Assembly: GCF_947623445.1 (NCBI RefSeq)
Contig: NC_135246.1
Coordinates: 14,615,856 to 14,679,855, forward strand
Origin: Clavelina lepadiformis
Taxonomy: Eukaryota; Chordata; Ascidiacea; Aplousobranchia; Clavelinidae
Direction: 5' to 3'
DNA: 64,000 nucleotides
This document shows, piece after piece, positions 6,801 through 9,534 of this stretch (position 1 is the first letter of the stretch; each line of letters starts with the position of its first letter). Position numbers and translations under genes: made by a program. The notes beneath the pieces were generated by a model. The model worked only from the letters and a program-made list of their open reading frames with translations. It did not search any database and was not told the origin of the DNA.

Positions 6801-8018
6801 TACAAGTATATGATTAATTATCACACTAGCTATACTACAAGTAGTTCAAGGTAAGTAGCTTAATAAAACGTTAAACTGAAGGAGAAAAAAGATCCAAGTT
6901 CACACAACGCCATATATAAACCGAGGGAAAAGAACTAGAGGCAATCAGTTACCACAAGCAATCAGACGCAAAACTGAAGCGACAAGCATTGTATATAGTG
7001 TGAGACGGTGGGCAAACTACTTATAAAGAAACTTCAAAAATTCAAGTTCAAGAAAAACTTTGCCAAACTTTCTTAGAAAGGGTAAATTCTATTTTAAACA
7101 TTTAGAAAAGTTTGTAGGCTATATCGTAAACTTTGCAAACTTTTATGTTTTTCTGGTATATTGTAATGGGTGACGATCGAGTGGAAAAACTGTTAAAAGA
7201 GCAAAGTTTTGCGTTTTATCTGCGTATGGTGCGACGAAATGTATGTTTTATTTTTTTGTACTTTTATATGTTTTATCATGTTAACGTTTTTAACATTTTA
7301 TACTGAACGTATGTAGCTTGTTTACACGCACATATATGCCTGTTACGTATCTGTTTGTCGCATTATCCACTCCATGTGAAAGGTAGAAGTTTGCAAACTT
7401 TTTATTTTTGTATCTTTTTGTATATACCGATATTAAATCTAGAACACACACAGTTATGGAATGTTATTCGTAAAAGGACAAATGAAGGCATTTAGGAAAT
7501 TGTAGTTTTGGCTATTGTGATTACTGATTAGCCGTTAGTTTCGTAGGAAAGTTTCTTGGGCCTACAGGAATTTAGCGTGACAATGGTACTGTTATGGCCT
7601 ATGTGATATAAAATCGCTCAAAACTTCGCTAAACCGCACCAACTTACTTAATTTAAATTTAAGAATTATACCGAAGAAGTAAGAATGAGTGATAAGGGTG
7701 GTGCATGATTCGTAAGATCTCTTTGCTGCTTGTGAGGGTTCATCGAAAACCTTTTTAATGATCCATGTCCATTGAAATTTCATTGCGCAACTATGCGAAT
7801 GTTTTTCTCTGCACGTCAACCAATGCGTCGATCGACCAAGATACTCCGACTATGATAGGACTTTCCTGGTATAGTCTTGGTGCGCACGAATCAAGCTATA
7901 CTTGTTTTGCTGCATGCAGGACAGAACATATAAGTCGTCTACAATTAACACAGGTTGTTCGGTAAGATTGACAGACAGACAGACAGACTTATTGAAAGCT
8001 TTTATTGCTGTACAGGTC
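3823..8018. other. intergenic region with a possible TATA promoter
   Basis: No protein-coding exon could be supported. Short open frames at 4170-4355, 5567-5802 and 6376-6639 lack splice context or family resemblance. A TATA-like box near 6913 could begin a leader exon of the EF-hand gene. A short (GACA)n microsatellite lies at about 7969-7987. Confidence 0.45.
6913..6920 (+). promoter_or_regulatory. candidate TATA box, possibly of the EF-hand gene
   Basis: TATATAAA is followed about 30 bases later by a possible transcription start and at 7082 by a donor-like GTAAAT. The first coding exon of the EF-hand gene sits behind an acceptor (TGTACAG at about 8009-8015), so a non-coding first exon starting here is plausible. 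This is inference only. Confidence 0.3.
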
Positions 8019-9534
8019 ATGGATGCTCAGAAGGAAGTTATAAGAAAATATCAAAACATTTTCTACAGTTTTGTTAAAGACGATGCAGAAAAGATCACTG
8101 TCGAGGTAAAGAACTTTGATTTTGATTCAATCTTCGAATTCGTCTTTATCTGATTTAGGCATATTACTCGACAAAATTAGGATAATTCATCAATGCAACT
8201 TAGGCTACATTAAAACATTTGCGTTTTGTTTTAGGATCTACAACGCGCCGTCGCGTTTATGGGATTCCAGTTTTCAACCCAAGAACTCTGCTTGATTCTT
8301 GAGCAAGTGCTTGAAGTCTCAACGTCGAACGTTGGAAAAAATTTTGTGGAGTTTTCACACTTTTTGGTGGTGACGTCGGTATTAGACAGGGTAAGAAAGC
8401 TAATCCTGATTTAATTTTTTTCTGTCTCTAATAAACGAAAATATCTGACGTAGACTATGTTGCAAATTTTATATAAACAATTATTTGGGACACTTTTGCC
8501 TTTTGTAGAATCTCCTGTTAAATAATACATTGGTTACTTTTTTGTGGTTCCACGACAATTAAACGTGGGAAATTGACCGCGAACAAACTCACCGGGGACA
8601 ACTGACCGGGGGACAACTGACCGTGACGTAAATTTACCTAGAACCAACTGACCTTAAATCATATTATCACTTAAATCATATAATTTGAATAAACAACAAT
8701 GCTAATTTGCGTAAAAAATAAAAATAAAATGCGTAGCGGTTGATTTGTGTCGCCGGCCAATTTGTTGCCGGTCAGTTGACCACGACCAATTGTCGCCGGT
8801 GAATTTGTTCACGGTCAATTGACGTGATCCCCTTTTTTGTAGTGTTACATATCGAACGTCGAAATAATGAGAATCTTTCAAGAATTTGATAAAGATGGAG
8901 ACGGATACATCTCCCCAGAAGAACTACGCAATCTTCTGCTCAGAATCGGTGAAGATTTCACCGAACTAGACATTCAGGTGGGCGTCGTTAAAATACGTGT
9001 TGCACAAAAATTTCAGCCCTGTTTCCATTGGCATGCGATCTTTAGCGCAGCAGTCATTTGAAATTTGCACCATAATAAACTGGTGTGGAATGTTAGCGAG
9101 GTGGTTATATACCAGAAGTTTCGAGGTTTATTTGCAAAGGCGCTGGACTTTATTTTAATATTTTATTTCTCCAGGAAATGATGTCAGCGGCGGATGAAGA
9201 CGGCGATGGCTTTGTTAGTTTTAACGAGTTCGTGCAAGTGATGACGTGTTCAGAAACTTCCCAAGAAGGTCAATTTGTAAAAGAAGGCTCTGATATTGAG
9301 ACATTTCGTGATTTTTCGAGAGAAGCCTCCATAAACAAATCGATCTCCGATGATAATGTGTCCTGCTCCAGCTGCTCAACCATTACTTCTTCCTCATCAG
9401 TCGTAGAACTGAGATATCCGACGCCACGTCCGGATGCGAAGTCTTCCCAGAAGAAAAAACGTTTTTTATCAAAGGGATCTTCAAGTAAAAATCATAAAAA
9501 GCAATCTATCGCAGCTTGGTTTAAAAAATGGTGA
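8019..9534 (+). CDS. calmodulin-like EF-hand protein with Ser-rich basic tail, 4 coding exons
   Basis: Coding exons 8019-8105, 8235-8390, 8843-8977 and 9175-9534 join in phase 0 to 245 residues. The C-terminal lobe has two canonical EF-hand loops: DKDGDGYISPEE (about 97-108) and DEDGDGFVSFNE (about 133-144), with Asp at positions 1, 3 and 5 and Glu at 12. The N-terminal lobe keeps the helical spacing but its two loops have lost the calcium ligands. Residues 145-245 form a Ser/Thr-rich and then Lys-rich extension ending AAWFKKW, absent from calmodulin and troponin C. It is probably a calcium sensor with two working sites; the partner is unknown. ATG 8019 follows an acceptor by three bases, so 5' UTR exons are likely. 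Intron 2 carries a MITE that abuts the exon 3 acceptor. Confidence 0.85.
8546..8831. mobile_element. MITE, Mutator-like, in intron 2 of the EF-hand gene
   Basis: A 286 bp inverted-repeat element with no coding capacity. The left end reads GGTTCCACGACAATTAAACG and the right end, on the reverse strand, GGGATCACGTCAATTGACCG. Inside, both arms repeat GACAACTGACCG-like units. It is flanked by a perfect 9 bp TSD, CTTTTTTGT, at 8537-8545 and 8832-8840. A 9 bp duplication with long divergent terminal inverted repeats is typical of Mutator-derived MITEs. The right TSD copy is the polypyrimidine tract of exon 3, and the acceptor AG is the next two bases. Confidence 0.85.

Follow-up and report, generated by a model that had tools for sequence, protein, structure and literature searches.

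Several elements of the arrangement described here are already known from other systems, namely branch points used after transposon insertion (PMC7969005), splice sites derived from target site duplications (TSDs; PMC9860276), and insertion at an acceptor, as in the merle pattern of dogs (PMC7349775). In canine merle a SINE with a 15-bp TSD is described at the acceptor of PMEL intron 10, where it puts branch point and acceptor further apart; with a long tail, splicing goes to a cryptic site, while with a short tail the original site is used. Approximately 90% of human branch points are reported to lie 19-37 nt from the 3' splice site (PMC7969005). In the same report every MIR insert placed 3' of the branch cluster, with the exception of MIR15, repressed splicing, and in the MIR15 construct additional branch points were mapped, including a UAA motif common to several MIR clones; in a reporter, inserted UAA but not UGA induced splicing, although in other introns both motifs performed equally. 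Introners are described as non-autonomous DNA elements with TSDs and terminal inverted repeats (TIRs), whose ends or TSDs join in splicing (PMC9860276). Among Mutator-like elements (MULEs), the Phantom group is listed with a TSD of 8-10 bp or none indicated, with no additional domain or a FLYWCH or SWIM domain, and with hosts that include Tunicata (PMC6446971), and Muta1 of Aedes aegypti is described as an active animal MULE whose 8- or 9-bp TSDs show no evident preference for particular sequences (PMC5225508). In the titles and abstract openings of the open-access literature we recognised no report of a MITE that separates a branch site from its AG and has the pyrimidine tract as its TSD.

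The window, by which we mean the whole stretch of 64,000 nt analysed, comes from contig 7 of the 209-Mb Clavelina lepadiformis genome and contains a gene with such an insertion in its second intron. The gene and the insertion are made up of the following features:

8019-8105, forward strand: coding part of exon 1, 29 codons, ending in phase 0 with donor GTAAAG (100% protein match there)
8235-8390, forward strand: exon 2, 52 codons, ending AGG/GTAAGA in phase 0 (open frame 8235-8414)
8391-8842, forward strand: intron 2, 452 nt now and 157 nt without the insertion
8537-8545, forward strand: left TSD copy, CTTTTTTGT, from repeat comparison
8546-8831, forward strand: Mutator-family MITE of 286 bp, from copies elsewhere and ends common to the MULE element at locus L117
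8832-8840, forward strand: right TSD copy, the present pyrimidine tract adjoining the AG
8841-8842, forward strand: 3' splice site AG, from the reading frame and a paralogue
8843-8977, forward strand: exon 3, 45 codons, with the EF-hand FDKDGDGYI (frame, profile match and paralogue)
9175-9534, forward strand: exon 4, with the second EF-hand and the stop (frame and profile match)

The four exons, the first of which (MDAQKE...TVE) lies within the open frame 7875-8153, join in phase 0 into one open frame of 245 codons, and the resulting protein of 245 amino acids has two EF-hands whose profile matches far exceed the Pfam cut-offs. The best PDB matches were to calmodulin constructs, with the best alignment to the C-terminal lobe of calmodulin, and the gene appears to be a calmodulin-like EF-hand gene. 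A paralogue (L118) on the same contig, at a distance of 1.2 Mb, matches the gene in the positions of introns 1 and 2, both in phase 0; its exon 3 can be aligned with that of the window, is likewise 135 nt in length, and agrees in phase and end, while the acceptor of its intron 3 was not found. Elsewhere in the genome, EF-hand matches at C2:2788641-2794806 form three pairs in tandem, repeating about every 2.64 kb.

The position of the acceptor matters for everything that follows. Since the codon preceding 8843 is an in-frame stop (TAG, 8840-8842), 8843 is precisely the first base of the open exon 3 frame, and all upstream acceptors in intron 2 read into a stop, either this TAG or one located 7 or 14 codons into exon 3. 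Together with the equal length and phase of exon 3 in the paralogue, this agrees with the exon 3 start that had been proposed from the sequence beforehand, and the acceptor at 8841-8842 appears well supported. Were the gene a pseudogene, or were another acceptor used, nothing would hinge on 8841-8842; given the single 245-codon frame, the strength of the EF-hand matches, and the matching phase-0 introns and equal exon 3 end of the paralogue, we consider such a mis-call hardly credible. An introner-like origin of intron 2 was also considered. It was rejected because the intron predates the insertion: 146 nt separate the donor at 8391 from the TSD downstream, and a phase-0 intron occupies the corresponding position in the paralogue.

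The element at 8546-8831 is non-coding, in that none of the 42 listed frames of at least 50 amino acids between 6000 and 12000 lies inside it. Its ends were set by full-length copies elsewhere in the genome, and the two copies of the TSD CTTTTTTGT, which start 295 bases apart, are identical over all nine bases. The acceptor AG follows the right copy directly. The preliminary description had read the locus as a MITE with a 9-bp TSD that is itself the pyrimidine tract and that is followed, in its right copy, by the acceptor AG, with the original branch region displaced by about 295 bp; each of these statements was borne out, the displacement being exactly 286 plus 9. As the sequence shows, the 9-bp staggered insertion duplicated the tract: one copy stayed next to the old branch region and the other stands directly before the AG, so that both acceptor and tract were retained.

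We compared the window element with its relatives across the genome. Full-length copies numbered 57 in 80 sequences (79 loci and the window), and in the remaining 23 the copies were partial or interrupted. A perfect 9-bp TSD was present in 51 of the 57, the window copy included, with 46 distinct flanks, and these TSDs have an A/T-rich middle without a fixed motif. The best 40 places, a scored subset of 750 first-look candidates that includes the window, were 96.5-100% identical, and 38 of them had a perfect TSD. Genome-wide, 129 near-perfect right ends (at most one mismatch) were found. A majority sequence was taken from 41 copies measuring 284-288 bp, and the window copy differs from it at one of 286 positions; eight of the 41 are identical to it and two differ at 35. 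By this measure the family is young and the window insertion recent.

Some copies have evidently been multiplied as passengers. Loci L043, L045, L047 and L115 have one common flank (GACTTTTTG...GGCATGA), the MITE being nested in another repeat and copied along with it, and L009 holds a MITE copy amid four more partial ends in both orientations, a nested or foldback-like cluster. The segment C3:883487-1078809 holds 20 of the 100 right-end matches listed, on both strands and with in-register spacings of about 70, 82 and 97 kb, and reflects either redundancy in the assembly or a large tandem segmental duplication.

A search of the genome for the MULE transposase domain gave 141 matches. One of them lies in an element of 2,178 bp (L117:986-3163) that has both ends of the MITE at approximately 94% identity and its own perfect 9-bp TSD, GTTATAAAT. 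Its reading frame is broken, with a frame of 312 amino acids over the MULE match and a separate frame of 176 amino acids containing a FLYWCH finger. A shorter relative of 1,650 bp (L116) also has both ends (92-95%) and a frame of 345 amino acids matching PF10551; a TSD was looked for at its ends and none was found. An intact FLYWCH-MULE frame of 472 amino acids is present at L119, in DNA 94.6% identical to the interior of the L117 element; in the stretch examined there, the left end is unlike the outer 18 bases of the MITE and a right end was not found. The transposase assignment rests on Pfam matches to PF10551 and PF04500.

Judged by these relatives, the MITE is a non-autonomous Mutator element, because its ends are common to a 2,178-bp element with a 9-bp TSD and with FLYWCH and MULE transposase pieces. 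The 9-bp TSD of the MITE copies and of the L117 element falls within the 8-11 bp of MULEs, and the family is short, non-coding, and present in many near-identical copies, as befits a MITE. The TIRs are imperfect, the arms 8571-8611 and 8780-8820 being 83% complementary, and in the predicted fold the outermost 25 bases on the left and 11 on the right are not paired together. From the common ends and the TSD length we infer that the MITE may be mobilised in trans by the transposase of another element. The genome also contains many MULE frames of about 519 amino acids with identical scores (for example L050-L059), and five tandem MULE-domain matches with identical scores and a period of about 8.5 kb occur at C9:2577932-2612116. 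No match to the window MITE was found in loci L048-L067, as far as these loci reach, and the frames of about 519 amino acids probably represent a second, recently active family.

The precise placement of the window copy raises the question of a preference for acceptors, and such a preference in the family as a whole was not supported, insertion next to AG not being enriched. An exact right end followed by nine bases and AG occurs at five places genome-wide, a number that can be set against the 129 right ends as a guide only, since those were counted with a slightly different pattern. The reverse arrangement (CT, nine bases and an exact left end) occurs at 14 places; nine of these have just two flanks (CTGCAAACGAC six times and CTGCTTTTTTC three times), so they represent insertions multiplied inside other repeats. 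Counting each flank once gave 46 perfect TSDs, of which four, including that of the window, have AG after the right copy and five have CT before the left copy, and the eight cases besides that of the window had no frame of more than 33 codons after the AG. In four of the five right-end AG places, C7:19929517 being left out, a pyrimidine-rich TSD together with a long open frame was seen only at the window. A rough base rate, which assumes about 100,000 introns, gives 0.06 to 0.4 exact acceptor insertions genome-wide. With hundreds of copies, one acceptor insertion per genome is unremarkable, and the MITE family does not appear to aim at acceptors.

To describe how the insertion changed the 3' end of intron 2, these further features are needed:

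8507-8508, forward strand: upstream AG after CACTTTTGCCTTTTGT, a potential cryptic acceptor that reads to TAA 8560-8562 inside the MITE
8516-8525, forward strand: likely branch region before the insertion, TGTTAAATAA (A8521, then at -26), a prediction only
8571-8820, forward strand: main stem of the predicted fold-back hairpin, enclosing the AGs at 8640, 8735 and 8774
8776-8842, forward strand: AG-free stretch 8776-8840 (MITE plus TSD) and the acceptor AG
8808-8812, forward strand: TTCAC, alternative candidate branch site (A8811, -31), present in 57 of 57 full-length copies
8819-8823, forward strand: TTGAC, candidate branch site (A8822, -20), present in 56 of 57 full-length copies

Before the insertion, 37 AG-free nucleotides preceded the acceptor AG, and the adenine with the best U2 pairing was A8521 at -26. 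After it, more than 300 nt separate the old branch site from the AG, with the AGs at 8640, 8735 and 8774 in between. Because of these three AGs the long AG-free zone of a distant-branch-point exon is not found here, the zone being 65 nt; the MITE contributes its last 56 nt, which end in TCCC and thereby extend the tract to TCCCCTTTTTTGT. According to the rule that the first AG after the branch point is used, which has exceptions (PMC1431707), splicing to 8842 would place the branch point within 8776-8830, all of which is MITE. The TTGAC of the MITE end had been proposed beforehand as a good branch candidate at the right distance. Its adenine does lie at -20 and ties with the best old site, and TTCAC scores equally: A8822, A8811 and the old A8521 all reach 4.0 of 6 in a U2 pairing count (Watson-Crick pairs 1, wobble pairs 0.5), a level reached by 6.3% of the adenines in the window in what is a generic U2 match that may differ from the branch consensus of the host. 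A branch motif derived ab initio from acceptors in the window was uninformative, only five sites having passed the filter.

A branch point supplied by the MITE, at A8822 or A8811, would be the simplest way to keep intron 2 spliced. We therefore weighed an account in which a young MULE insertion left the intron spliced to 8842 by way of a MITE branch point, and hold it at somewhat short of an even chance. The position of the two adenines, at -20 and -31, and their tie with the best old adenine speak for it. Against it, the predicted hairpin occupies the TT of TTGAC and the flanks of A8811, and TTGAC is a UGA motif, the class described as failing to induce splicing in the reporter of PMC7969005.

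The MITE RNA has a predicted fold of -95.2 kcal/mol (z -6.44), and none of 200 shuffles was as stable. The stem 8571-8820 recurs in four minimum free energy folds of different extent. Within it the TT of TTGAC (8819-8820) is paired and A8811 is predicted to be bulged alone between pairs, so that U2 would have to open the stem. Folded alone, the MITE leaves 8821-8831 unpaired. When 8500-8860 is folded, 8821-8825 and 8838-8841 pair with exon 3, including A8822 and the A of the acceptor, and in the longer folds (8391-8977 and 8391-8860) part of 8824-8840 pairs with the upstream intron at 8477-8493; in the larger fold the pairing probability of A8822 was 0.10 at 37 C.

The same hairpin offers the intron another route, in which it would hide the three AGs and bring the old branch site and the left tract to about 41-43 nt from the AG, the MITE giving the hairpin only. 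Because the left TSD copy still trails the old branch region as a tract, use of the old branch site by such looping out is conceivable, and the stability of the fold and the recurrence of its main stem are consistent with it. In the structures sampled, the median path length between A8520 and the AG was 43 nt at 37 C and 41 nt at 18 C, with no exposed AG, and stems between branch point and 3' splice site are described in 21 of 88 yeast introns (PMC12350175). However, the distance fails to discriminate: 24 of 60 dinucleotide shuffles also reached a median of at most 45 nt and at least 10 of 60 exposed no AG, and since so many shuffles do equally well the distance argument is retained as a possibility only. 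In the two longer folds the MITE 3' tail and some of the right tract pair with 8477-8493, and in the 8500-8860 fold the acceptor A is paired; both count against looping out, as does the distance of more than 300 nt when the RNA is unfolded, and the folding of naked RNA leaves out proteins and co-transcriptional binding. On balance we regard this route as unlikely. Nevertheless, with the three AGs enclosed in the hairpin, use of the old site is conceivable, and the earlier claim that the MITE end must now provide the branch point is too strong, given that a second MITE adenine, looping out of the hairpin, and damage to splicing are all possible.

The last of these, damage, is a substantial possibility, to which we would give less than even weight. 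The insertion would then have weakened the acceptor, leading to skipping of exon 3, use of the AG at 8507-8508, or intron retention, and the window would carry a young, perhaps polymorphic, allele that is mildly or strongly deleterious. At 135 nt, exon 3 can be skipped in frame, a good pyrimidine tract precedes the AG at 8507-8508, and the window copy is just one difference in 286 from the family consensus. Precedents point the same way, in that the merle SINE with a long tail diverts splicing from the acceptor to a cryptic site (PMC7349775) and nearly all MIR inserts 3' of the branch cluster were repressive (PMC7969005). On the other side, tract and AG are intact, the only three AGs in the MITE all fall within the predicted hairpin, and the merle allele with short tails uses the original site (PMC7349775). 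The gene also has no visible frame damage, but with an insertion this young the intact open frame says nothing about surviving function or splicing. The gene has probably been spliced differently or badly since the insertion.

The scarcity of AG in the MITE extends to the family. The window copy has three AGs where 19.2 would be expected from its composition, a number as low as this occurring in none of 2000 mononucleotide shuffles, and eight CTs where 15.6 would be expected (p 0.008), although these significances are overstated because the internal repeats are not independent. Of 1275 windows scanned, the two lowest in AG both overlap the MITE. The eight full-length copies checked, of 57, are all AG-poor (3-5, with 16.6-20.8 expected), and seven long variants had 12-23 AGs with 29-47 expected. 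In the 2,178-bp element at L117 the depletion is mild, AG and CT being 0.80 and 0.89 of expectation, as compared with 0.91 and 0.93 for the window as a whole. Among MITEs, depletion was measured in this family alone, against its own composition, and the AG poverty is most simply put down to the make-up of the MITE, in which one AG-poor unit is repeated. It is tempting to speculate that the family has been shaped so as to go almost unnoticed by splicing, being AG-poor on both strands, with a hairpin that hides the AGs and with TTGAC and TTCAC in an AG-free 3' end, but we consider this quite improbable. If it were true, an insertion even within a pyrimidine tract would cancel its own effect, since the tract is copied and a branch point comes with the element, and if the AG poverty had been selected it would show a transposon lowering its own cost inside introns.

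Returning to the MITE branch point as the account we prefer, the sequence of events would be as follows. A very young non-autonomous MULE element inserted in the pyrimidine tract of intron 2 of an EF-hand gene; the intron would still be spliced to 8842, with a branch point in the MITE 3' end at A8822 or A8811; and the replacement component would have come from the MITE by chance, without adaptation. The locus is a clean natural experiment, in which one step parted the branch region from the acceptor, doubled the tract, and spared the exon.

Set beside the systems described above, the MITE family resembles Phantom in its 9-bp TSD and in the FLYWCH and MULE transposase of its long relatives (PMC6446971), but the window copy is a 286-bp non-coding derivative, and the likeness is one of description. 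Likened in the same way, by description, the family and Muta1 (PMC5225508) are alike in TSD length and in having no evident target motif. Introners, as described, create a new intron (PMC9860276), whereas intron 2 of the window gene existed beforehand, has its own donor, and is common to the paralogue. The OGDH distant-branch-point MIR inserts are like the window MITE in lying between branch point and 3' splice site, with additional branch points used in one construct, but they are engineered minigenes with SINEs and were mostly repressive, while the window has a natural MITE known from sequence (PMC7969005). As described for merle (PMC7349775), a transposon and its TSD lie at the acceptor and the path from branch point to AG is lengthened, with an outcome that depends on length; the merle element differs in being a retroposon with a poly(A) tail and its own cryptic acceptor, in contrast to the AG-poor DNA transposon found here, whose TSD is the pyrimidine tract itself.
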